From: Inmirania thermothiophila | Lineage (GTDB): Bacteria > Pseudomonadota > Gammaproteobacteria > DSM-100275 | Reading direction: 5' to 3' | DNA: 64,000 bases | Assembly: GCF_003751635.1 (NCBI RefSeq) | Contig: NZ_RJVI01000002.1 | Location: 731,986-795,985 of the forward strand | Part shown: positions 29,453 through 43,792 of the stretch, piece by piece | Layout of the letters: each line of letters begins with the position of its first letter | Numbering within the stretch: the first letter of the stretch is position 1 | The notes under the pieces: generated by a model | What the model was told of the DNA's origin: nothing | The model's input: the letters and a program-made list of their open reading frames with translations, nothing else | The model's database searches: none | Position numbers and translations under genes: made by a program

Positions 29453-30757
29453 TCAGCCGAAGATGTCGCGCGTGATGTTGTTGAACCAGCTATGGGCGTA
29501 GGCCACCTCACGGCGCCGATGCTCCGGGGTGGCGTCCATGGGCGTCAGCCCGCCTGCGCCCTTCACTCCCTCGATCTCGTTCTTCTCGCGGTTGTAGCGG
29601 TAGACCGCGGCCACCGAGATGCCCCAGTCGGGCCCGACGATGGAGTAGCAGGTGTTGACGTAGGACGGCTCCGGAGGGGCCTGGTCGTTGAGCAGGGCGA
29701 CCACGGCGGCGGCGCAGACCTTGGCCTGCGAGTTGGCGGCGTAGCCCGACTTGGGCATCGCCGCCGCCACGCTGGCGTCTCCCAGGATGTGGACCCCGGG
29801 GTGGATGGAGGACTCGAAGGTCTGCTTGTTCACCGGGCACCAGTCGCCATCGGTGAGGCCCGCCGCGTGGGCGATGGCACCGGCCTTCTGCGCTGGGATG
29901 ACGTTGAGGACATCCCCCTTGACGGCGTCGCCGAACTTGGTGACCACCGTGCGCGTGGCCGCGTCCACCCGCTCGATGCCGTAGTCGGTCTTCTCGCCGC
30001 TCACCCAGTCGATCATGCTGTTGTCGGTGCCGTAGCCGTAGAGGGCCTTCCAGCCCTGCATGAAGAGCCCCTGCTTGGAGAACTTGGCCTTGGCATCGAG
30101 AATGATGATCTTGGAGCGCGGCTTGTGCCGCTTGAGGTAGGCGGCGATGAGGCTCGCCCGCTCGTAGGGCCCCGGCGGGCAGCGGAAGGGATTGGGCGGC
30201 GGGCAGATGACCACCGTCCCGCCGTCCGGCATCGCCTCGAGCTGCTTGCGCAGGGTCGCCGTCTGCGGCCCGGCCTTCCAGGCGTGGGGAATGGTCCCGG
30301 CAACCTGCTCGTCGTAGCCCTCGATGGTCTCCCACTTGAAGTCGATCCCGGGGGCGACCACCAAGCGGTCGTAGCCGAGGGTCTTGCCGCCCGCAAGGTG
30401 CACCTTCCGCGCATCCGCGTCGATGGCGGTCACGGTGTCGTGCACCACCTTCACCCCCTTCTTGCGGAGGCCATCGTAGCCGAAGCGGATGCGCTCGAGG
30501 TCGCGGAACCCGCCGAGCACCTCGTTGCTCATGAAGCAGGTGTGGTAGACGCGGTTGCGCTCCACCAGCGTAACCTCGATGGAGGGGTCGAGGCGGCGCA
30601 TATAGTGGGCGACGGTGGCCCCGCCCGGCCCGCCGCCGACGATCACCACCTTCTTCTCCCCCTTGGCGACGGCCGGCGCCGTCACCACGCCGGTGAGGGC
30701 GGCCACGCCGAGGGCCCCCCCGGTCTTCAGGAAGTCGCGTCGCGTGATCTGGCTCAT
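29453..30757 (-). CDS. fccB: Sulfide dehydrogenase flavoprotein subunit (FccB)
   Basis: FccB is the FAD subunit of flavocytochrome c, which oxidises sulfide in the periplasm and passes electrons to its cytochrome partner. The 434-residue protein carries a Tat signal ([13 protein letters not shown]), and the FAD-binding [17 protein letters not shown] starts about residue 38. Redox cysteines are seen in [16 protein letters not shown] and in [11 protein letters not shown], matching the active-site disulfide pair of Allochromatium FccB. The ATG at 30757 has GGGAGGAGGAG directly before it; a GTG at 30772 overlapping the fccA stop is less likely. It is co-transcribed with fccA, 11 bases upstream. 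Confidence 0.95.
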
Positions 30758-30768
30758 CTCCTCCTCCC

Positions 30769-31413
30769 TCACTTCTGGCCGGCGTAGTAGTGGATCAGGG
30801 CCTCGAGGTCCTCATCGCTGAGGTCCTTCATCTTCGCCCGCATCTTCTTGGGCATGGCGCGGTCGCCGCTGCGGAAGTCCGCGATGGCGAACTCCAGATA
30901 GGTCTTCCACTGGCCGGCCAGGATGCCCGCACCGTCGCCGACACGACCGCCCTCCTCGTGGCACTTCTCGCAGTTGTCCTTGTGCAGGCGCTCGCCCTTG
31001 CGCGCAAGCTCCCCGTCCACCTTCTGGCGGTGGCCGACGAACTTCTTCGAGGCGAAGTGATCGGCCATGGCCAGAATCTCCTGGTCGCTGTAGCCCCGCG
31101 CGATGCGCGCCATCACGGTCGAGGTGCGGGGCAGGGTCTCGATGTCGCCGGGATCGACGCCGAGCGCCTTGGCCGCCTGCTCGATCTTCTCCTCATCCCC
31201 TCCGTACTTGTAGGCGAGCATGGCGCTCAGGAAATACGTCTTCGAGATCCCGGCGATGGTGGGGGTGGCCGGACCGTTGCTCACCCCGTCCGTGCCGTGA
31301 CAGCCGGCGCAGGTATCGGCGAGCATTCGCCCGCTAGGGGCCGCGAACGCCCCCGACGCGAGGAGCACGCCCCCGGCGAGGGCGAGCAGCTTCTTTCGGT
31401 CCACGGTCTTCAT
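30769..31413 (-). CDS. fccA: Sulfide dehydrogenase diheme cytochrome c subunit (FccA)
   Basis: The electron-accepting cytochrome subunit of flavocytochrome c. The 214-residue protein has a Sec signal peptide (about residues 1-25, cut after GAFAA) and two c-type heme sites, CAGCH (35-39) and CEKCH (148-152), in two similar domains, as in Allochromatium FccA and the related cytochrome c4 family. Pairing with fccB makes the subunit role much more likely than free cytochrome c4. It has an 80-base leader behind a sigma-54-type promoter and an upstream operator pair. Confidence 0.92.
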
Positions 31414-31494: not shown

Positions 31495-31510
31495 TGCATG
31501 GTCCGTGCCA
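31495..31510 (-). promoter_or_regulatory. Sigma-54 promoter of fccAB
   Basis: Minus strand: TGGCAC, five bases (ggacc), ATGCA. The -24 element is perfect, the -12 element differs from TTGCA by one base, and the GG-to-GC spacing is exact. The predicted start is about 31,484, some 70 bases before the fccA ATG. Confidence 0.85.
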
Positions 31511-31595: not shown

Positions 31596-31617
31596 TGTCA
31601 TGACAATCGTCGTGACA
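31596..31617. promoter_or_regulatory. Tandem operator (enhancer) upstream of fccAB
   Basis: A perfect palindrome TGTCATGACA (31596-31605) is followed by a weaker copy CGTCGTGACA (31608-31617), centres 12 bases apart. It is about 85-110 bases upstream of the -24/-12 promoter, the usual distance for a sigma-54 activator enhancer. The same palindrome stands before both PAS-AAA+ regulator genes. Confidence 0.7.
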
Positions 31618-31630
31618 TGCGCGCCCTCGG

Positions 31631-32215
31631 TCAGGTCGCGGCTTCTTCCTCCCCGCCCTGTTCATCGGGCTCGTCGCGCTCGGGCAGCCGGTGGACGACG
31701 CCGCGGTGGCAGTGGATGCAGGTCTTGCCCCTCTCCTGCGCCGTCTCATGCTTGCGCCGCGCCTGGCGGTCCTGCTCCCCGAGGTCCATGCCGTCCCACT
31801 GGTGGCAGCTGCGGCAGGTGGCGGAGTCCGTGCGCTCCATGAACCACCAGACCCGCTCCGCCATCTCCAGGCGGTGGGCCCGGAACTTCTCCGGCGTGTC
31901 GATCTTGCCCGTGAGGGTGAACCAGACGTCCTTGGCGGCACGGATCTTGGCCGCCAGCTTCGGCACGAAGGCTTGCGGGACGTGGCAGTCCGGGCACTCG
32001 GCGCGCACCCCCGAAGGGTTGCGGTAGTGGAGCGACTCCTTGTACTCCTCGTACGGCGTGCGCATCTCGTGGCATGAGATGCAGAAGGCCATGCTGTTGG
32101 TGCCTTCGACGAGGGGATAGTAGACCGCGCCGTAGACCGCACCCACCGCAACCAGGGTCAGCACCGACGGCACCACCCAGGGACGGAGTTTCCAGCGGCG
32201 GAAGAAGATGTTCAT
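31631..32215 (-). CDS. NapC/NirT-family tetraheme c-type cytochrome
   Basis: NapC/NirT cytochromes exchange electrons between the quinone pool and periplasmic redox enzymes. The 194-residue protein has an N-terminal membrane anchor (about residues 13-33) and four heme motifs: CISCH (45-49), CPDCH, CRSCH and CIHCH. The ending is acidic. The ATG at 32215 follows a GGAGTCGGGAG stretch. No nitrate or nitrite reductase gene is nearby. Lying between a sigma-54 activator and fccAB, it may link flavocytochrome c to the quinone pool, possibly for quinone reduction; that role is inference from position. It has its own sigma-54-type promoter. Confidence 0.9.
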   Translation of the reverse strand: MNIFFRRWKLRPWVVPSVLTLVAVGAVYGAVYYPLVEGTNSMAFCISCHEMRTPYEEYKESLHYRNPSGVRAECPDCHVPQAFVPKLAAKIRAAKDVWFTLTGKIDTPEKFRAHRLEMAERVWWFMERTDSATCRSCHQWDGMDLGEQDRQARRKHETAQERGKTCIHCHRGVVHRLPERDEPDEQGGEEEAAT

Positions 32216-32257
32216 GGCGACTCCCGACTCCTCCTGACCCAATCGGCCGGAGCCGGA

Positions 32258-32289: not shown

Positions 32290-33609
<1,320 letters not shown>

Positions 33610-33635: not shown

Positions 33636-33656
33636 CGTCATGACGATGTCATGACC
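33636..33656. promoter_or_regulatory. Double palindromic operator before the sigma-54 activator gene
   Basis: CGTCATGACG (33636-33645) and TGTCATGACC (33647-33656) lie with centres 11 bases apart, one helical turn. They start 27 bases upstream of the activator ATG at 33609, a position suited to autoregulation. They match the fccAB upstream element. Confidence 0.7.
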
Positions 33657-34107: not shown

Positions 34108-35139
34108 GTGCGCCTGCTTCCCGCCGAGTGGGCGCCGCAGGACGGCGTCCTCCTCACCTGGCCCCACGAGGGCACCGACTGGGCCGACGACCTCGGCGCG
34201 GTGGAGACCTGCTACGCCGAGATCGCCGCCGCCGTGGCCGAGCGCGAGCGGGTGGTGGTGGTCTGCCGCGACGAGGCGCACCGGGCCGAGGTGGCCTCGC
34301 GGCTGAGGCACCTGCCGCCGCGGCGGCTGCTGCTCGCGACCGCCCCCAGCGACGACACCTGGGCCCGCGACCACGGGCCGCTGGTGGCGCTGGAGGACGG
34401 CCGCCCCGTGGTGGTGGACTTCCGCTTCGACGGCTGGGGCGGCAAGTACCCCGCGGCGCGCGACGACGCCATCACCGCCCGCCTGCACGAGGCCGGCCTC
34501 TTCGGGGAGGCGCCGCGGGAGCCGGTGCCGCTGGTGCTGGAGGGTGGGGCCGTCGACAGCGACGGCGCCGGCACGCTGCTCGCCGCCGCCCGCTGCGTCC
34601 TCGACCCGCGGCGCAATCCCGGCATCACCCGCGCCGCCATGGAGGAGGCGCTGCACCGCCACCTCGGGGTGCGGCGCATCCTCTGGGTGGAGGCGGGCGC
34701 GCTGGCCGGCGACGACACCGACGGCCACATCGACACCCTCGCCCGCTTCTGCTCCCCCGCCGACATCGCCTACGTCGCCCCGCCCCCTCCGGGGCACCGC
34801 GACCGCGACACCCTGCGCGGGCTCGAGGCGGCGCTGCGCGCCCTGCGCCGCGCCGACGGCAGCCCCTACCGCCTCCACCCGCTGCCGCCCCCGCCGCCGC
34901 TGGAGGAGGACGGGCGCCCGCTGCCGGCAAGTCACGCCAACTTCCTCGTCATCAACGGCGCCGTGCTCCTGCCCACCTACGGCAGCCCGGCCGACGAGAC
35001 GGCGGCCGAGCGCCTGCGCGCCCTCTTTCCGGGGCGCCAGATCGTGGGCATCGACTGCCGCGCCCTGGTGCGCCAGAACGGCAGCCTCCACTGCGTCACC
35101 ATGCAGCTTCCGGCGGGCAGCCTCGCCGGCGCCGGATGA
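34108..35139 (+). CDS. aguA: Agmatine deiminase
   Basis: AguA converts agmatine to N-carbamoylputrescine in putrescine synthesis from arginine. The 343-residue protein shows PAEWAPQDGVLLTWPH at the start and the active-site elements DDTWARDHGP, GGWGGKY-like DGWGGKYPA, DDTDGHIDTLARF, and the catalytic cysteine in QNGSLHCVTMQLP near the C-terminus. The start is GTG at 34108, only three bases after the BamE-like gene. aguB follows 34 bases downstream. Confidence 0.95.
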   Translation: MRLLPAEWAPQDGVLLTWPHEGTDWADDLGAVETCYAEIAAAVAERERVVVVCRDEAHRAEVASRLRHLPPRRLLLATAPSDDTWARDHGPLVALEDGRPVVVDFRFDGWGGKYPAARDDAITARLHEAGLFGEAPREPVPLVLEGGAVDSDGAGTLLAAARCVLDPRRNPGITRAAMEEALHRHLGVRRILWVEAGALAGDDTDGHIDTLARFCSPADIAYVAPPPPGHRDRDTLRGLEAALRALRRADGSPYRLHPLPPPPPLEEDGRPLPASHANFLVINGAVLLPTYGSPADETAAERLRALFPGRQIVGIDCRALVRQNGSLHCVTMQLPAGSLAGAG

Positions 35140-35173
35140 TGCGATAATGCCGCCTCCCCAGAGGCGAGGACCC

Positions 35174-36070
35174 ATGAGCCAGGACACGCTCCCCATCGCG
35201 CTGGTGCAGCAGCGCTGCGACGGCGCCCCCGAGGCGAACCTCGCGCGCAGCCTCGACGGCATCGCCGAGGCGGCGCGCGCCGGCGCCGCCCTGGTGGTGC
35301 TGCCGGAGCTGCACCGCACGCCCTACTTCTGCCAGCGCGAGGACGTGGCCGCCTTCGATCTCGCCGAGCCGGTGCCCGGCCCCACCACGGAGCGGCTCGC
35401 CGAGGCCGCCCGCACCCACGGCGTGGTGGTGGTCGCCTCGGTCTTCGAGCGCCGCGCGCCGGGGCTGTGCCACAACACCGCCGTGGTCCTCGATCGCGAC
35501 GGCCGCATCGCGGGGCGCTACCGCAAGATGCACATCCCGGACGACCCGGGCTACCATGAGAAGTTCTACTTCACCCCCGGCGACCTCGGCTTCCGTCCCG
35601 TGGACACGGCGGTGGGCCGCCTCGGCGTGCTGGTGTGCTGGGACCAGTGGTACCCGGAGGCGGCGCGGCTGATGGCCCTCGCCGGCGCCGAGCTCCTCCT
35701 CTACCCCACCGCCATCGGCTTCGACCCCGCCGAGCCCGCCGACGAGCAGGCGCGCCAGCTCGAGGCCTGGCGCACCGTGCAGCGCGGCCACGCGGTGGCC
35801 AACGGCCTGCCCCTCGCCGCCTGCAACCGCACCGGCTTCGAGCCCGCCCCCGACGGCGCGGGCGGGATCCGCTTCTGGGGCGCCAGCTTCGTCTGCGGCC
35901 CGCAGGGGGAGTGGCTCGCCAGCGCCGGCGAGGAGGAGACGGTGCTCCTCGCCGAGATCGACCGCGGCCGCACCGAGGCCGTGCGCCGCATCTGGCCCTT
36001 CCTGCGCGACCGCCGCATCGACGCCTACGCCGGGCTGGCCCGGCGCTACCTGGACGAGCCGCAGCCATGA
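35174..36070 (+). CDS. aguB: N-carbamoylputrescine amidase
   Basis: AguB hydrolyses N-carbamoylputrescine to putrescine, CO2 and ammonia. The 298-residue nitrilase-family protein has the Glu-Lys-Cys triad: glutamate in VVLPELHRTPYF, lysine in RYRKMHIPDDPGYHEKFYF and cysteine in VLVCWDQWYPEAARLM. The long YHEKFYFTPGD loop is typical of AguB. It completes the agmatine route with aguA. A possible extended -10 (TGCGATAAT, hexamer 35143-35148) in the gap could give it an extra promoter. Its TGA overlaps the DAHP synthase ATG. Confidence 0.95.
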   Translation: MSQDTLPIALVQQRCDGAPEANLARSLDGIAEAARAGAALVVLPELHRTPYFCQREDVAAFDLAEPVPGPTTERLAEAARTHGVVVVASVFERRAPGLCHNTAVVLDRDGRIAGRYRKMHIPDDPGYHEKFYFTPGDLGFRPVDTAVGRLGVLVCWDQWYPEAARLMALAGAELLLYPTAIGFDPAEPADEQARQLEAWRTVQRGHAVANGLPLAACNRTGFEPAPDGAGGIRFWGASFVCGPQGEWLASAGEEETVLLAEIDRGRTEAVRRIWPFLRDRRIDAYAGLARRYLDEPQP

Positions 36071-37203
36071 TCCTGATCCTCGAGCCCAACACCGACCACG
36101 CGGGGCCGGCGTTCCGCGCGCTCATGGAGCACCTGGCGGCGCTGCCCGGCATCGAGGCGCGGGTCCACGACGTGGTCGGCGCCCAGCAGGTCCTGACCGA
36201 GATCTACCTCATCGGCGACACCCACGCGCTGGACGCCGAGGAGATGGCCAGCCTGCCCTGTGTGGAGCGCGTCATCCGCGTCTCCGAGGCCTACCGCATC
36301 CTCGGCCGCCACCGCGACGCCGCGCGCATCCACGGCTTCGAGTACAACGGCGTGCGCTTCGACCAGGACGGGCTGCAGGTCTTCCCGGGCCTGTGCGCCG
36401 TGGACACGCGCGAGCACGTGGAGCAGATGATGCGGGCCCTCGCCGAGCACGGCGTGGTCTGCACCCGCATGGGGGCGTACAAGCCGCGCACCAGCCCCTA
36501 CGCCTTCCAGGGCCACGGCAAGGCCTGCCTGCCCTGGGTCTTCGAGCTCGCCGGCAAGTACGGCATCCGCGTCGTCGCCATGGAGGTGACCCACGAGAGC
36601 CAGGTGGACGAGATCCGCGAGGCCCTGCGCCGCGCCGGCGAGCCCACCGGGGTCATGCTCCAGATCGGCACCCGCAACACGCAGAACTTCGAGCTGCTCA
36701 AGATCGTCGGCCGCCAGAACGACTTCCCGGTGCTGCTCAAGCGCGGCTTCGGCATCACCCTGGAGGAGTCCCTCAACGCCGCCGAGTACCTCGCCAGCGA
36801 GGGCAACCACCGCATCGTCTTCTGCCTGCGCGGGGTCAAGACCCACCTCGGCGACCCCCACCGCAACCTCGTCGACTTCGCCCACGTGCCGGTGGTCAAG
36901 CGCCTGACGCGCATGCCGGTCTGCATCGACCCCTCCCACTCCGTGGGCGGCCGCCAGGCCTCGCCCGACGGGCTGCTCGACATCTTCCACGCCACCGCCC
37001 AGGGGGTGATCGCGGGCGCCAACATGATCCTGGTGGACTTCCACCCCGACCCCGCCAAGGCCCTCGTGGACGGCCCGCAGGCCCTGCGCCTCGACGAGCT
37101 CGGCCACTTCCTCGACGACGTCGCCATCGTCCGCGAGGCCTACGAGGCCCGGCGCCGCCGCGCCGGTGAGGCCGGCACGCCCGCGGTGGCCGGGCAGGGC
37201 TGA
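36067..37203 (+). CDS. DAHP synthase, class I beta-like with N-terminal regulatory domain
   Basis: DAHP synthase condenses PEP and erythrose 4-phosphate, the first step of the shikimate pathway. The 378-residue protein has an N-terminal extension of about 80 residues (a ferredoxin/ACT-like region seen in the Thermotoga-type enzyme) and then the barrel. In the barrel are CTRMGAYKPRTSPYAFQG with the catalytic lysine, LKRGFG, and CIDPSHSVGGR with the metal-binding histidine. ATGA overlap with aguB makes it part of the polyamine operon, which is unusual. It may be a specialised isoenzyme, or there may be no functional link. Confidence 0.85.
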   Translation: MILILEPNTDHAGPAFRALMEHLAALPGIEARVHDVVGAQQVLTEIYLIGDTHALDAEEMASLPCVERVIRVSEAYRILGRHRDAARIHGFEYNGVRFDQDGLQVFPGLCAVDTREHVEQMMRALAEHGVVCTRMGAYKPRTSPYAFQGHGKACLPWVFELAGKYGIRVVAMEVTHESQVDEIREALRRAGEPTGVMLQIGTRNTQNFELLKIVGRQNDFPVLLKRGFGITLEESLNAAEYLASEGNHRIVFCLRGVKTHLGDPHRNLVDFAHVPVVKRLTRMPVCIDPSHSVGGRQASPDGLLDIFHATAQGVIAGANMILVDFHPDPAKALVDGPQALRLDELGHFLDDVAIVREAYEARRRRAGEAGTPAVAGQG

Positions 37204-37213
37204 GGGGGCGGCC

Positions 37214-37894
37214 TTGCCGCGGGCGCTGGAGCGGGCCTGCATCGACGCCTTCCCGCAGCTTGCGGCGGTGGAGCCGCGCTCGCGCGACGTGCTCCTCGCC
37301 GCGGCCCGGCGCGTGCGCCTGCCGGCCGGCACCGTGGTCTTCCGCGAGGGCGAGGGCTGCCGTAGCTACCTGCTGGTGCTCGACGGCACGGTGCGCGTGC
37401 AGAAGGTCTCGGAGAGCGGGCGCGAGATCGTCCTCTACCGCGTCGAGCGGGGCGAGGGCTGCGTCCTCACCACCACCTGCCTGCTCGCGAGCTCCCGCTA
37501 CCCCGCCGAGGGCGTGGCCGAGACCGAGGTGGACGCGGTGGCGGTGCCGGTGCACGAGTTCCACCGCGTGCTCGCCGAGTCCGCGCGCTTCCGCGAGCTG
37601 GTCTTCGCGGTCTACGCCCGGCGCGTCACCGAGCTCATCCTCCTCGTGGAGGAGGTGGCCTTCGGGCGCATGGACCGCCGCCTCGCCCACCGCCTCCTGG
37701 AGCTGGCCGCGGGCGGGGCCCGCATCGAGGCCACCCACCAGGCGCTCGCCGCCGAGCTCGGCACCGCCCGCGAGGTGGTCAGCCGCCTGCTCAAGGAGTT
37801 CGAGCGCCACGGCTGGGTGGCCCTCGGCCGCGGCTGGGTGGAGGTGCGGGACCCCGAGGCCCTGCGGCGCGCGGCCGCGGGCGGGCTTGTGTGA
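37214..37894 (+). CDS. Crp/Fnr-family transcriptional regulator
   Basis: A 226-residue regulator with an N-terminal cyclic-nucleotide-type sensor fold (VVFREGEGCRSYLLVLDGTVRVQ, residues about 38-60), a long dimer helix and a C-terminal winged helix with LAAELGTAREVVSRLLKEFE. The four cysteines expected for an oxygen-sensing Fnr cluster are not present at the N-terminus, and a cAMP-binding pocket is not convincing, so the signal is unknown. No ATG fits; a TTG at 37214 with GAGGGGG before it gives a sensible N-terminus (LPRALERACIDAFPQ). The DUF2892 gene downstream is a likely target. Confidence 0.87.
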   Translation: MPRALERACIDAFPQLAAVEPRSRDVLLAAARRVRLPAGTVVFREGEGCRSYLLVLDGTVRVQKVSESGREIVLYRVERGEGCVLTTTCLLASSRYPAEGVAETEVDAVAVPVHEFHRVLAESARFRELVFAVYARRVTELILLVEEVAFGRMDRRLAHRLLELAAGGARIEATHQALAAELGTAREVVSRLLKEFERHGWVALGRGWVEVRDPEALRRAAAGGLV

Positions 37895-37978
37895 CTTTGT
37901 TACTGCGCAGACCTTGAAGAGCTGCTGAACTGTCCGCAGCTTGCACCCACCGATGGACAACGCCAGAGGAGGCCTGCC

Positions 37979-38173
37979 ATGAGCAAGAACGTCGGCACCA
38001 TCGACAAGGTCATCCGCATCGTCCTCGGCCTGGTCCTGATCGGGCTCGCGCTGTTCGGCCCCAAGACGCCCTGGGGCTGGATCGGCGTCATCCCGCTGGT
38101 GACCGGCCTGATCGGCTTCTGCCCGCTCTACAGCCTGCTCGGCATCAAGACCACCGGCGAGGCCAAGGCCTGA
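37979..38173 (+). CDS. DUF2892 inner-membrane protein (YgaP-like)
   Basis: A 64-residue protein with two membrane helices (about residues 12-28 and 33-55), starting MSKNVGTIDKVIRIVLGL, with CPLYSLLGIKT at its end. This is the DUF2892 family, also found fused to rhodanese in YgaP. Such proteins often accompany Crp/Fnr regulators in sulfur-related or redox loci. A GAGGAGG ribosome binding site precedes the ATG. The gap behind the Crp/Fnr gene holds a half-matching Crp-type site, TGTGA followed by TTACTG (37890-37905). A strong terminator follows. Confidence 0.88.
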   Translation: MSKNVGTIDKVIRIVLGLVLIGLALFGPKTPWGWIGVIPLVTGLIGFCPLYSLLGIKTTGEAKA

Positions 38174-38245: not shown

Positions 38246-39508
38246 TCAGCCTGCACCCTCGCGCAGACGGCGCAGGTAGCGGTAGAGGGTGCGCTCGCTG
38301 ACGCCGAGGTAGGCGGCGGCGCGGCCGCGGTGCCCGCCGGCGCGCGCAAGGGCGGCGAGCACCGCCTCGCGGCCCACGGTCCCGCCCGCGGGGCGGCCGC
38401 GGCGGCGCAGCGGCTGCACCGCCTGCGGCTCGGCGGGAAAGACCACGTGCCGGGGCCGCAGCGGCCCGTCGCCGGCGAGCACCACCGCGCGCTCGACGAT
38501 GTGGCGCAGCTCGCGCACGTTGCCGGGGTAGTGGTACGACATGAGCCGCTCGAGCACCTCCGGCGCCAGCGGCAGGTGGCGGCCGCCCCCGTCCATGGCG
38601 GCGACGAAGTGCTCGGCCAGCGCCGGGACGTCGTCGATGTGTTCCCGGAGGGCCGGCATCTCCACCGGGAAGGCGCCGAGGCGGTAGTAGAGGTCGGCGC
38701 GCAGACGGCCGCGCTCGACGCAGGCGACGAGGTCGCGCCGCGTCGCCGCCACCACCCGCACATCCGCCCGCCCCCCCTCCAGGGCGCGCAGGAGCCGCGC
38801 CTGCGCGCCCGGGGGCAGTTCCGCCACCTCGTCGATGAAGAGGGTCCCGCCGCGCGCCGCCTCCAGCAGCCCGCCGCGGCCCGGCGCCGGATCGCCGGCG
38901 AGCGCCTCCTCGATCCCGGCCGGGCCGAGGGCGGCGCAGTCGGCCACCACGAAGGGGCCGTCGGCGCGGCGGGAGTGATGGTGGAGGTAGCGCGCGGCCT
39001 GCTCCTTGCCGGTCCCGCCCTCGCCCGAGAGCAGCACCGCGGCCTCGCTGCGCGCCGCCCGCTGCAGCAGCGCCAGCACCCGCAGCATGGACGGCGAGCG
39101 CCCGACCAGCAGCTCGCCCGCCACCGCCCGCTCGCTCAGCGGCCGGATGCGCTCGCCGAAGAAGCGCACGCAGCCGCCGTCGAGGATCGGCATGACCTCG
39201 AGCTCCACCCGGTCGGCCCGCCCGTCGGCGTCGTAGTGGACGTGCAGCGCCTGGGCCGGGCCGCGGCTCGCCAGCGCCATCTCCAGCGGACAGACCTCGC
39301 CGTGGCGGCTGCAGGGCACCGGCGAGCGGTGCGAGACCTCGTGGCAGCGCCGCCCCTCCACCTCGCCCCGGCGCAGGCCGTAGCGGCGCCGGTAGGCGCG
39401 GTTCGCGGCGACGATGCGGTAGTCGCGGTCGATGACCACGAAGGGCTCCGGCAGCAGGTCGATGACCTGCTGGCAGGTGGGGCGGTCGAGGTGCTCCGGA
39501 GCCCCCAT
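38246..39508 (-). CDS. PAS-AAA+-Fis regulator lacking GAFTGA, paralogue of the fcc activator
   Basis: A 420-residue paralogue of the regulator at 32290-33609. The PAS domain keeps every Cys/His of the sensor (RRCHEVSH...VPCSRHGEVCPL: Cys55, His56, His60, Cys66, Cys73, plus Cys12). Walker A is GEGGTGKE and Walker [12 protein letters not shown]. The stretch that carries [12 protein letters not shown] in the paralogue is replaced by a short AGDPAPGRGG, and the insertion before VRVVAAT is also shortened, so both loops that contact sigma-54 are gone. The Fis helix [19 protein letters not shown] is nearly identical. It probably binds the same sites without activating sigma-54, like TyrR-type regulators. 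Start: ATG 39508 with GGGGGAGGAG before it. Confidence 0.9.
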   Translation of the reverse strand: MGAPEHLDRPTCQQVIDLLPEPFVVIDRDYRIVAANRAYRRRYGLRRGEVEGRRCHEVSHRSPVPCSRHGEVCPLEMALASRGPAQALHVHYDADGRADRVELEVMPILDGGCVRFFGERIRPLSERAVAGELLVGRSPSMLRVLALLQRAARSEAAVLLSGEGGTGKEQAARYLHHHSRRADGPFVVADCAALGPAGIEEALAGDPAPGRGGLLEAARGGTLFIDEVAELPPGAQARLLRALEGGRADVRVVAATRRDLVACVERGRLRADLYYRLGAFPVEMPALREHIDDVPALAEHFVAAMDGGGRHLPLAPEVLERLMSYHYPGNVRELRHIVERAVVLAGDGPLRPRHVVFPAEPQAVQPLRRRGRPAGGTVGREAVLAALARAGGHRGRAAAYLGVSERTLYRYLRRLREGAG

Positions 39509-39542
39509 GGCGGCTCCTCCCCCGCGGGGCATCCCCCCATGC

Positions 39543-39552
39543 TGTCATGAGG
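39543..39552. promoter_or_regulatory. Half-degenerate operator copy before the second regulator
   Basis: TGTCATGAGG matches TGTCATGACA at eight of ten positions and lies 35 bases upstream of the regulator ATG at 39508. This is about the place the double operator holds before the first regulator. It suggests cross- or autoregulation. Confidence 0.5.
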
Positions 39553-39563
39553 GCACCCGCCGA

Positions 39564-42230
39564 TCAACGCCCGAGGCGCCGCCACGCCGCCTTGTCGAGC
39601 TCCGCCGCCGCCGCCACCGCCAGACCGAGAGCGGCGGCGAGTCCCCATGCCCCAGGGCCGAGCGCCGCGGTGCCGAAGAGCGCCTGCAGCGGCGGGGCGT
39701 GGGTGAAGAGGAGCTGCAGCGCGAGCACCGCCGCCACCGCCCGCGCCACCCAGGGATTGGCCCGCAGGGGCGGGCCCCGCCAGAGCGGGGCCAGCACCCG
39801 CCGGGTGGTGAAGAGGTAGGCCGCCTCCGCGAGCACCAGGGTGTTGGCGGCGGCCGTGCGCGCCGCCGCCTCGCCGCGGGGCGCGACGAGCTCGTAGGCG
39901 AGGTAGACCGCGCCCGCCCCCAGCACCGAGACCAGGGCCACGCGCCAGGCGAGCAGCGGCGAGAGCAGCCCCGCGCGCGGCGGGCGCGGCGGGCGCGCCA
40001 TCACGTCGGGCTCCGGCGCCTCGAAGGCCAGCGCCAGCGCCAGGGTGACGGCGGTGACCATGTTGATCCAGAGGATCTGCAGCGGGGTCACCGGCAGCGG
40101 CAGCCCGGTCACCATCCCGATCCACACCGCGAGCGCCTCGGCACCGTTGGTGGGGAGCACGAAGAGGAGCGCCTTGCGGACGTTGTCGTCCACCACCCGC
40201 CCCTCCTCCACCGCCGCCACGATGGTGGCGAAGTGATCATCGGCGAGCACCACCTCGGCGGCCTCCCGCGCCGCCTCGGTGCCGCCGCGGCCCATGGCCA
40301 CGCCCACGTGGGCGCGCCGGAGCGCCGGGGCGTCGTTGACTCCGTCGCCGGTCATGGCTACCACCGCCCCCAGCCCGTCCAGGGCCTCCACCAGCCGCAA
40401 CTTCTGCTCGGGGCTGGTGCGGGCGAAGACGTCGCAGCCGGCGGCCGCCTCCCGCCAGCCGCGCTCGTCCAGCGTCGCGAGCTCCCCGCCCGTGCGCACC
40501 GGCTCGGGCCGGGCGATGCCCACCGCGCGCGCCACCGCGGCGGCGGTGCCCGGATGGTCGCCGGTGACCAGCTTGACCGCGATCCCCGCCCGCCGCGCCT
40601 GCGCCACCGCGGGCGCCGCCTCCGGCCGCGGCGGGTCCATGATCCCCACGAGCCCGAGCAGGGTCAGGCCGTCCCCGGCCAGCGCCTCGAGGGGCCCGCC
40701 GGCGCCGTCCTCCACCCGCCGCTCCGCCACCGCCAGCACGCGCCGCCCCGCCCGCGCCATGGCCTCGGCCCGCGCGCGCCACGCCGCCGCCTCGAGGGGG
40801 GCCTCGCCCCGGGCGGTACGCACCCGCGCACAGCGGGCGAGCACCGCCTCCGGCGCCCCCTTGAGGCAGAGCAGGCGCCGCCCCGCGGCCTCGCGGTGGA
40901 GGCTTGCGGTGAAGCGGCGGGCGGGATCGAAGGGCAGCGCCGCGATGCGCGGCGCCGAGACCGCCAGCGCCGCGGGGTCCAGACCGAGCTTGCGCGCGAG
41001 CACGTGCAGCGCCGCATCCACCGGGTCCCCCGCCGCGCGCCAGCCGTCGGGGCCGGGCTCCACGTGCGCGTCGGCGGCAAGCGCGCAGGCCCCCGCCAGG
41101 GCCGTGAGGGCGGCGTCCGCCGGCGGCACCACCGCGCCCCGCGGCTCGTAGCCCGCGCCGGCGACGCGGTGGACCCCGCTCGCCGTCACCACCTCCACCA
41201 CCGTCATCTCGCCCCGGGTCAGGGTGCCGGTCTTGTCGGTGCAGATCACAGTCACCGCGCCGAGGGTCTCCACCGCGGGCAGGCGGCGGATGACGGCGTT
41301 GCGGCGGGCCATGCGCTGCACCCCCACCGCGAGGGTGATGGTGACGATGGCGGGCAGGCCCTCGGGGATCGCCGCCACCGCGAGGGCCACCGAGGCCAGG
41401 AACATGTGCGCGGCGTCGGCGCCGTGCCAGAGCACGCCGGCGGCAAAGCCCGCCGCCGCAAGCAGCAGGGTCAGGGCCGTGACCCAGCGCGCGAGCCGCG
41501 CCAGGCGCGCAAGAAGCGGACTGGCGAGGGGCGGGCGCTGCGCCACCATGCCGCTGATGCGCCCGATCTCGGTCCCGGGCCCGGTGGCCACCACCACCCC
41601 CCGGCCCTGCCCGCGCCGGACCATCGTCCCCGCCCAGGCCATGGAGCGGCGCTCGGCGAGCGGACTCTGCGGCGCCACCGCGGCGACGGCCTTCTCCACC
41701 GGGACGGACTCGCCCGTGAGCGCGGCCTCGTCCACCGCCAGCGCGTGCGCCTCCAGCAGCCGCAGGTCCGCGGGCACCCGATCCCCGGCGGCGAGCACCA
41801 CCACGTCCCCCGGCACCAGCCCAGCGGCGTCCACCTCGGCGAGCCGGCCGTCGCGGACCACCGTCGCCCGCGGCGCCAGCACGCGCCGGATCGCCTCCAT
41901 GGCGTCCTCCGCCCGCCCCTCCTGGATGAAGCCGATGAGGGCGTTGACGAGCACGACACCGAGGATGACCCCGGCGTCGAGCCACAGGCCCAGCGCGGCG
42001 GTCACCGCCGCGGCGGCGAGGAGGACGTGGATGTAGACGCTCTCGAACTGGCGCAGGAAGCGGCGCAGCGGCCCGTCCCGCGGCGGCGGCGGGAGGCGGT
42101 TGGGCCCGTGGCGGGCAAGCCGCGCCGCCGCCTCCGCGGCGCCGAGGCCGTCCGGGCCGCTGGCGAGGCGCGCCAGCACCTCCGCCGCGGCGAGCGCATG
42201 CCACTGCGGCGCGGCCCCCTCCCTCGGCAT
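39564..42230 (-). CDS. P-type cation-transporting ATPase (P2 type)
   Basis: An 888-residue P-type ATPase of the P2 (Ca2+/Na+/K+-type) group in the cytoplasmic membrane. In order: N-terminal cation ATPase domain (WHALAAAEVLARL), membrane pair M1-M2, actuator loop with LTGESVPVEK, M3-M4 with AAIPEGLPAIVTI, phosphorylation site CTDKTGTLTRGEM, KGAPE nucleotide region, MTGDGVNDAPALRRA, and M5-M10. PEGLP in M4 fits Ca2+ pumps, but M6 reads LWINMVTAVTLALAL without the acidic residue usual for SERCA/PMR1 pumps, so the ion is uncertain (Ca2+, Na+ or Mn2+). The ATG at 42230 is preferred over an upstream start at 42266. Confidence 0.88.
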   Translation of the reverse strand: MPREGAAPQWHALAAAEVLARLASGPDGLGAAEAAARLARHGPNRLPPPPRDGPLRRFLRQFESVYIHVLLAAAAVTAALGLWLDAGVILGVVLVNALIGFIQEGRAEDAMEAIRRVLAPRATVVRDGRLAEVDAAGLVPGDVVVLAAGDRVPADLRLLEAHALAVDEAALTGESVPVEKAVAAVAPQSPLAERRSMAWAGTMVRRGQGRGVVVATGPGTEIGRISGMVAQRPPLASPLLARLARLARWVTALTLLLAAAGFAAGVLWHGADAAHMFLASVALAVAAIPEGLPAIVTITLAVGVQRMARRNAVIRRLPAVETLGAVTVICTDKTGTLTRGEMTVVEVVTASGVHRVAGAGYEPRGAVVPPADAALTALAGACALAADAHVEPGPDGWRAAGDPVDAALHVLARKLGLDPAALAVSAPRIAALPFDPARRFTASLHREAAGRRLLCLKGAPEAVLARCARVRTARGEAPLEAAAWRARAEAMARAGRRVLAVAERRVEDGAGGPLEALAGDGLTLLGLVGIMDPPRPEAAPAVAQARRAGIAVKLVTGDHPGTAAAVARAVGIARPEPVRTGGELATLDERGWREAAAGCDVFARTSPEQKLRLVEALDGLGAVVAMTGDGVNDAPALRRAHVGVAMGRGGTEAAREAAEVVLADDHFATIVAAVEEGRVVDDNVRKALLFVLPTNGAEALAVWIGMVTGLPLPVTPLQILWINMVTAVTLALALAFEAPEPDVMARPPRPPRAGLLSPLLAWRVALVSVLGAGAVYLAYELVAPRGEAAARTAAANTLVLAEAAYLFTTRRVLAPLWRGPPLRANPWVARAVAAVLALQLLFTHAPPLQALFGTAALGPGAWGLAAALGLAVAAAAELDKAAWRRLGR

Positions 42231-42346
42231 GCCCGCAGGGTAGCAGCGCGCCCCCGCCGGGGGCAACGGTTGCGGGGCGCGGGCGCGGGCCGGAAAATAG
42301 CCCGCCGGCCAGAGGCACCCCCTTGAGAAGAAGAAGGAGCATCCGC

Positions 42347-43792
42347 GTGCACCGACTCCACCCCCTGCTCGCCGTCGCCGCGCCCGTCCTCCTCGCCGCC
42401 TTCGCCGTCCCGGCCCTCGCCGCCGGCCCCGCCGAGGACCTCACGCGCCACCCCATCGGCTACGTGGCGCTCGCCATCTTCGTCCTCGCCTACCTGCTGG
42501 TGATGGCGGAGGAGTTAACGCATCTGCGCAAGTCCAAGCCCGTGATCCTCGCCGCGGGCATCATCTGGGGGATGATCGCCGTCTACGCCGGACGCCACGG
42601 CGACCCGGTCCAGGCCGAGGAGGCGCTGCGCGGCAACCTCCTCGAATACGCCGAGCTGATGCTCTTCCTCCTCGTGGCCATGACCTACATCAACGCCATG
42701 GAGGAGCGGCGGGTCTTCGACGCCCTGCGCGCCTGGCTCATCCGCAAGGGCTTCGGCTACCGCAAGCTCTTCTGGATCACGGGGTGGCTCGCCTTCTTCA
42801 TCTCGCCGGTGGCGGACAACCTGACCACGGCGCTGCTCATGTGCGCGGTGGTGCTGGCGGTCGGCAAGGACAACGCCCGCTTCGTGGCGCTCTCCTGCAT
42901 CAACATCGTCGTCGCCGCCAACGCCGGCGGCGCCTTCAGCCCCTTCGGCGACATCACCACCCTGATGGTCTGGCAGAAGGGGATGGTGCCCTTCCACGAG
43001 TTCTTCGCCCTCTTCATCCCCTCGGTGGTCAACTTCGCCGTCCCCGCGGCGGCGATGCACTTCGCCGTGCCCGACCTCAAGCCCGCGCCGAGCAGCGAGG
43101 TGGTGCAGATGAAGCGGGGGGCGAAGCGCATCGTCGCCCTGTTCCTGCTCACCATCGTCACCGCCGTCTCCTACCACAACTTCCTCCACCTGCCGCCCGT
43201 GATCGGGATGATGACGGGCCTGTCCTACCTCATGTTCTTCGGCTTCTACCTCAAGGTCACCCGCGGCCGCGAGCGGGGACGCAGCAGGCGCATGGAGGCG
43301 GGCACGGACGAGGAGGATCTCGGCGAGCCGGTCGCCTTCGAGGTCTTCGAGAACGTCTCCCGCGCCGAGTGGGACACCCTGCTCTTCTTCTACGGCGTGG
43401 TGCTGTGCGTGGGCGGCCTCGGCTACCTCGGCTACCTGGAGGTGGTCTCGCGGGTCATGTACACGGGCTGGGGTCCCACCTTCGCCAACACCATGGTGGG
43501 CATCCTCTCCGCGGTGGCGGGCAACATCCCCATCATGTTCGCGGTAGTCACCATGAACCCGGACATGTCCCACGGCCAGTGGCTGCTGGTGACGCTCACC
43601 GCCGGGGTCGGCGGCAGCCTCCTCTCCATCGGCTCCGCCGCCGGCGTGGCGCTCATGGGGCTTGCGCGCGGGCGCTACACCTTCTTCAGCCACCTGCGGT
43701 GGACGCCGGTGATCGCCGCCGGCTACGCCGCCAGCATCCTCGTCCACATGTGGCTGAACGCCCCGCTGTTCCAGCGCGCCGCGGGCGGCTGA
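42347..43792 (+). CDS. nhaD: Na+/H+ antiporter NhaD
   Basis: NhaD exchanges Na+ or Li+ for H+, mainly in marine, halophilic and alkaliphilic bacteria. The 481-residue protein starts with a cleavable-looking hydrophobic leader (ending PALAAGP) and has some twelve membrane segments. NhaD signatures are ISPVADNLTTALLMCAV, NAGGAFSPFGDITTLMVW and GNIPIMFAV. The GTG at 42347 follows AAGGAG at good spacing; a TTG further upstream is unlikely. A weak candidate promoter (TTGCGG at 42270, AAAATA at 42294) lies in the gap to the divergent ATPase. Together with nhaA and oadGAB it points to a sodium-rich habitat. Confidence 0.95.
   Translation: MHRLHPLLAVAAPVLLAAFAVPALAAGPAEDLTRHPIGYVALAIFVLAYLLVMAEELTHLRKSKPVILAAGIIWGMIAVYAGRHGDPVQAEEALRGNLLEYAELMLFLLVAMTYINAMEERRVFDALRAWLIRKGFGYRKLFWITGWLAFFISPVADNLTTALLMCAVVLAVGKDNARFVALSCINIVVAANAGGAFSPFGDITTLMVWQKGMVPFHEFFALFIPSVVNFAVPAAAMHFAVPDLKPAPSSEVVQMKRGAKRIVALFLLTIVTAVSYHNFLHLPPVIGMMTGLSYLMFFGFYLKVTRGRERGRSRRMEAGTDEEDLGEPVAFEVFENVSRAEWDTLLFFYGVVLCVGGLGYLGYLEVVSRVMYTGWGPTFANTMVGILSAVAGNIPIMFAVVTMNPDMSHGQWLLVTLTAGVGGSLLSIGSAAGVALMGLARGRYTFFSHLRWTPVIAAGYAASILVHMWLNAPLFQRAAGG

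Follow-up and report, generated by a model that had tools for sequence, protein, structure and literature searches.

A bEBP paralogue in Inmirania thermothiophila has lost both loops of the sigma-54 activators, L1 with its GAFTGA motif and L2, and its sensor and DNA-binding helix are unchanged. Its sister activator, which adjoins the sulfide dehydrogenase genes fccAB, retains both loops, and the full and disarmed sisters stand 4.6 kb apart in one genome. The paralogue is probably a sensor-controlled, operator-binding antagonist that keeps the repressor half of an activator/autorepressor. Since two activation loops have been lost with sensor and DNA grip intact, its most likely role is that of a built-in brake on the sulfide-oxidation genes.

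Two sister regulators near fccAB

Coordinates refer to the window, the whole stretch of 64,000 nucleotides that was analysed. The two regulators and the fccAB locus comprise the following features.

38246..39508, minus strand: loopless bEBP paralogue (PAS-AAA+-HTH, 420 aa; Pfam and ORF list)
39281..39346, minus strand: Cys/His motif of the PAS sensor (CHEVSHRS...PCS...CPLE), fully conserved (alignment)
39002..39025, minus strand: paralogue Walker A, GEGGTGKE (pairwise alignment)
38825..38842, minus strand: paralogue Walker B, LFIDEV (pairwise alignment)
38681..38701, minus strand: paralogue Arg-finger segment, RADLYYR (pairwise alignment)
38276..38299, minus strand: paralogue recognition helix, SERTLYRY, the same as in the activator (pairwise alignment)
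32290..33609, minus strand: canonical sister activator with GAFTGA and L2 (Pfam, alignment, AF2 model)
31631..32242, minus strand: NapC/NirT-type cytochrome c gene between activator and fccAB
30769..31413, minus strand: fccA, cytochrome c subunit
29453..30772, minus strand: fccB, flavocytochrome c sulfide dehydrogenase flavoprotein

The paralogue has the domain plan PAS-AAA+-Fis HTH (Pfam; the HTH is PF02954) and shares 69% identity with the activator (32290-33609). Its ORF, strand and coordinates had been given correctly in the initial annotation. We prefer the start at 39508, which yields 420 residues and has GGGGGAGGAG before it, to the in-frame ATG at 39532 that opens the longest ORF. Walker A, Walker B, the Arg fingers and the Fis-type HTH, all traits of bEBPs (PF00158), are present, and the L1 loop with GAFTGA and the L2 (pre-sensor I) loop are missing. 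The GNVREL motif is also retained in the pairwise alignment, and at sensor I the Asn or His of relatives is replaced by Arg.

The Cys/His PAS sensor and the SERTLYR helix, which are traits of the fcc-type PAS-bEBP family, are both found in the paralogue, with no departures at 34 conserved columns. The alignment bears out the earlier proposal that the sensor and the Walker motifs are common to the paralogue and the fcc activator. The recognition helix, described then as almost identical, is identical over the whole quoted segment, and DNA binding by the paralogue is predicted from this identity. The invariant Cys and His of the sensor might serve as ligands for a metal or an Fe-S cluster, or as sites of reaction with sulfur species.

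Two transport genes adjoin the loopless regulator, encoding a P-type cation ATPase (39564-42266) and a divergent CitMHS-type (NhaD-like) transporter (42323-43792). The ATPase gene ends 55 bp upstream of the paralogue, which may be transcribed by read-through from it.

Selective loss of both sigma-54 loops

The positions of the two deletions, and of the corresponding loops in the activator, are as follows.

38879..38899, minus strand: place of the L1/GAFTGA deletion, AGDPAPG (alignment and model)
38765..38776, minus strand: place of the L2 (pre-sensor I) deletion, GGRA (alignment and model)
32974..33006, minus strand: activator L1 loop, absent in the paralogue (pairwise alignment)
32821..32853, minus strand: activator L2 loop, absent in the paralogue (pairwise alignment)

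Pairwise alignment with the activator gives a net deletion of 7 residues (21 nt) in L1, where GAFTGA is gone and the short unrelated stretch AGDPAPG that the initial annotation had recognised stands in its place. The second loop, before VRVVAAT, is shortened as had also been noticed, with 11 residues (33 nt) missing. Both gaps are in frame and the gene is otherwise open, which makes a sequencing error unlikely. Both loops are retained in all 33 other family members examined (29 from the class and 4 from one order).

Departures from the family were counted at conserved columns, defined as those conserved in at least 27 of 29 family members from other genomes of the class. The paralogue departs at 11 of 19 such columns in L1, 4 of 4 in L2, 13 of 86 in the rest of the AAA+ domain, 0 of 21 in the PAS domain and 0 of 13 in the HTH; the corresponding counts for the activator are 2/19, 0/4, 7/86, 0/21 and 0/13. 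The departures of the paralogue are concentrated in L1 and L2 (15/23 versus 13/120 elsewhere; Fisher p = 1e-7), and the loss of the loops is therefore selective rather than part of a general decay. We set aside a pseudogene or an assembly error as the main reading, since both deletions preserve the frame and are confined to the two loops, and the conserved sensor and HTH sites are intact.

AlphaFold2 models built from family alignments have a mean pLDDT of 85.7 for the paralogue and 86.2 for the activator. The two AAA+ domains were compared, as had been suggested earlier. In the activator model an extra hairpin (252-254, 261-263) lies at L2 and an L1 extension follows residue 202; both are absent from the paralogue model, in which helix 233-245 runs straight into strand 251-256 and the AAA+ core is kept. 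Foldseek matched the AAA+ part of the paralogue to the solved bEBP domains of ZraR, FlrC, PspF and NtrX, with TM-scores by target of about 0.8 for AAA+ constructs, and the top match is NtrX 5m7n. The L2 loop of PspF acts mainly by positioning L1 (PMC2745333), so that a joint loss of the two loops is functionally coherent. Having no L1/GAFTGA and no L2, the paralogue cannot activate sigma-54 in the known way.

The host genome encodes rpoN and 15 clear Sigma54_activat proteins, of which the strongest 12 carry GAFTGA and L2. Two GAFTGA-less bEBP relatives of different kinds are present, the paralogue and an NtrX (L180:65-1504, G000:C1) that keeps L2. No other loopless family member was found in order, class and phylum samples plus one contig scan, the host's order being represented by a single genome. 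Some relatives have second, more distant copies, and all alignable ones keep GAFTGA or a near variant. Outside the family, a small bEBP relative in a Gammaproteobacteria MAG (M0108; L091:1-1149) resembles the paralogue in lacking L1 and L2 and in having a sensor I Arg (AATRHD), but differs in having no PAS sensor, another HTH and another family membership; it apparently represents an independent loss of both loops. In bEBP relatives from Lentisphaera, Pelagibacteraceae and Lysobacterales MAGs (L078, L082 and L090), L1 is shortened and L2 is intact.

The loopless copy at the ancestral locus

A conserved block of genes lies between the two regulators.

34108..38173, plus strand: syntenic block from the agmatine deiminase to the YgaP-like gene, facing the family regulator in relatives
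36067..37203, plus strand: DAHP synthase in the block
37166..37894, plus strand: crp in the block
37979..38173, plus strand: ygaP-like gene in the block

A maximum-likelihood tree places the two window proteins (P0001 and P0002) in one clade with support 100/100, with a branch length of 0.70 for the loopless protein against 0.31 for its sister. The pair is a lineage-specific duplication. Of 20 relatives inspected, 9 have the family regulator convergent with genes for DAHP synthase or agmatine deiminase or with crp-ygaP. In the window it is the loopless gene that occupies this ancestral position, facing the syntenic block. The activator is divergent from the agmatine deiminase gene, adjoins napC-fccAB and is not in the ancestral position. 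A related locus (L147) has one canonical regulator in the old position, then agmatine deiminase, napC, fccA, fccB and sfsA. Synteny thus identifies the copy at the ancestral locus as the one that lost its loops, although this gene order could also stem from a more complex rearrangement. The initial annotation missed this ancestral position, as it did the operator placement suited to autorepression that is described below.

Operators of the family

The operators in the window and the promoter associated with them are given here.

31596..31617, no strand: tandem operators TGTCATGACA and CGTCGTGACA upstream of fccAB
31496..31510, minus strand: predicted sigma-54 promoter TGGCACGGACCATGC before fccA
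33636..33656, no strand: tandem operators CGTCATGACG and TGTCATGACC (as read on the plus strand), 27-47 bp upstream of the activator start codon
39543..39552, no strand: putative operator of the family in degenerate form, reading CCTCATGACA on the minus strand and ending 35 bp before the paralogue ATG

The earlier designation of TGTCATGACA as the operator is supported by comparative genomics. In 14 of 29 relatives a site with no more than one mismatch lies in the 220 bp preceding the relative's own regulator gene, where shuffled sequences predict 0.14; with up to two mismatches allowed, the count is 20 of 29 (2.3 expected). These sites lie mostly 20-80 bp before the regulator start codon, a placement that would fit autorepression rather than a distant enhancer. 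Many genomes of the class (L095-L123) carry this PAS-bEBP family with TGTCATGACA conserved upstream of the regulator genes, and we found no name or paper for it.

At fccAB the tandem operators lie about 86 bp upstream of the sigma-54 promoter. The spacing recurs in L147, where a similar site, AGTCATGTCA, stands 84 bp upstream of TGGCGCACGGATTGC before fccA and the single regulator is in the old position. The host genome (2.6 Mb) has exactly two loci that match the pattern GTCAYGAC-N(1-25)-GTCAYGAC, one upstream of fccAB and one upstream of the activator gene, and none that match its reversed control. Seven single operator-like sites elsewhere in the genome were inspected, and most are inside genes. 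The number of TGTCATGACA-like sites within the window is not above chance (10 versus 7.7 expected); the evidence for the operator is its position, pairing and presence in relatives, not its count in the window. The degenerate site before the paralogue reads TGTCATGAGG, two mismatches from TGTCATGACA, and in shuffled sequences a match of this quality at this position has a probability of about 0.002. The equivalent operator of the activator gene ends 38 bp from the ATG.

In L101, L102, L103 and P0001 a TTGA-type hexamer begins 15 nt ahead of the operator, which is suggestive. A fixed -35/-10 register around the operator is not general among the genes checked, and a sigma-70 consensus scan of the region gave no match. 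At another locus, the interval between DAHP synthase and the regulator (L146:7330-7500) contains a perfect sigma-54 promoter, TGGCACGCATATTGC; TGACATGTCA lies upstream of this promoter and a hairpin-T-run follows it, so that the interval may encode a sigma-54-controlled small RNA.

A proposed brake on sulfide oxidation and its alternatives

In the simplest history, one dual-role protein was split in two. The ancestral regulator would have been both a sigma-54 activator of fccAB and a repressor of its own gene, acting through an operator that covers the promoter of that gene. Once the gene had been duplicated, both sigma-54 loops would have disappeared from the copy at the old locus, leaving it with the half that binds DNA and represses. 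The paralogue would bind TGTCATGACA-type operators without coupling ATP turnover to sigma-54. It could then occupy the sites upstream of fccAB without activating, or join the ring of the activator and poison it, and it would repress the activator gene. The output of fccAB would track the ratio of the sisters and their sensor states. We favour antagonism because tandem operators occur in the genome solely upstream of fccAB and of the gene for the activator. Several points weigh against it: the paralogue's branch is twice as long as that of its sister, its transcription may depend on read-through from the ATPase gene, the host's order is represented by a single genome, and VnfA1/VnfA3, the best-studied paralogue pair, co-activates.

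The initial annotation had left the choice between a sensor-controlled antagonist and a TyrR-like sigma-70 regulator. Its premises, the loss of the loops with sensor and helix kept and the identity of the operator, hold; of its two interpretations antagonism is preferred, and the other is possible but unlikely. A regulator of sigma-70 promoters like TyrR, or like NtrC of Rhodobacter and Caulobacter, would have its own targets and share the operator incidentally or in part. Loopless bEBPs with such roles are known (PMC3162934; PMC10274813) and single operator-like sites do occur elsewhere in the host genome, but most of these are intragenic and the tandem operators are restricted to fccAB and the activator gene. 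Moreover, no family operator was found between the neighbouring ATPase and CitMHS-type antiporter genes, and no separate sigma-70-type regulon for the paralogue was found in the host genome.

The retained Arg fingers, Walker motifs and AAA+ core would also suit a helper subunit that enters mixed rings with the activator, as paralogous bEBPs are able to do (PMC9542535), and that modulates or supports activation through a second sensor input in the manner of VnfA1/VnfA3 or HrpR/HrpS. We regard this as quite unlikely, given that a protein without L1 and L2 can take no part in sigma-54 engagement and that relatives in other genomes function without a partner copy. Least probable among the readings considered is a functionless, decaying duplicate. 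The longer branch, the degenerate operator and the availability of only one genome of the order speak for it; the absence of departures at the 34 sensor and HTH positions, the two clean in-frame loop losses and a GC3 of 0.967, typical for a coding gene in the host genome, speak against it.

Relation to known regulators

The antagonist proposed here shares its PAS-AAA+-Fis HTH plan, Walker A and B motifs, Arg fingers, lid and recognition helix with sigma-54 activators (PF00158), its own sister included, and differs from them in lacking both L1/GAFTGA and L2. NtrC of Caulobacter and Rhodobacter is a GAFTGA-less bEBP that acts at, or has been assigned to, sigma-70 promoters (PMC10274813). Like the paralogue, NtrC of Rhodobacter capsulatus and Caulobacter has a deleted GAFTGA loop and keeps DNA binding (predicted for the paralogue) and the AAA+ domain; unlike it, these proteins are REC-domain response regulators for which an L1 deletion is described and which are not duplicates of an intact activator nearby. 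TyrR, DhaR, HupR and VpsR are further GAFTGA-less relatives at, or assigned to, sigma-70 promoters, and these and PhhR resemble the paralogue in having no functional GAFTGA but possess other sensor domains (PMC3162934). NtrX, which is also GAFTGA-less in the host itself, differs in its REC domain and its retained L2. The paralogue scores below the cut-offs of the curated models for TyrR (NF008085; 147 bits, cut-off 576), NtrX (NF051870; 197 bits, cut-off 600) and PgtA (NF047793; 89 bits, cut-off 650).

Related bEBPs that act together include VnfA1/VnfA3, HrpR/HrpS and FleQ/FleT. VnfA1 and VnfA3 of Azotobacter are paralogues with common target promoters that form mixed oligomers and co-activate (PMC9542535); in contrast to the pair studied here, neither is described there as stripped of both sigma-54 loops. 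For LuxO and SypG of Vibrio fischeri, which act at a common promoter, competition and the formation of mixed hexamers have been raised as possibilities (PMC10162802). A partial literature search found no report of a loopless sister antagonising, or standing beside, its intact activator. GAFTGA-less bEBPs at sigma-70 promoters are already known, but a sister stripped of both loops beside an intact activator is not among the described cases that we found.

We tentatively suggest that the paralogue may be a natural dominant-negative sigma-54 regulator, in which the ancestral-locus copy was stripped of both loops after duplication and its sensor and DNA-binding parts stayed fully constrained. Activator and antagonist, with one operator and one type of sensor, would together set the expression of the sulfide dehydrogenase. 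bEBPs without GAFTGA have been known singly, re-wired to sigma-70; here the intact and disarmed versions occur together, and the tandem operator is found only at their presumed joint targets. With this pair one can test directly whether a repressor can emerge from within an activator family through excision of the loops, and whether activation and autorepression were already separable functions of the ancestral protein.
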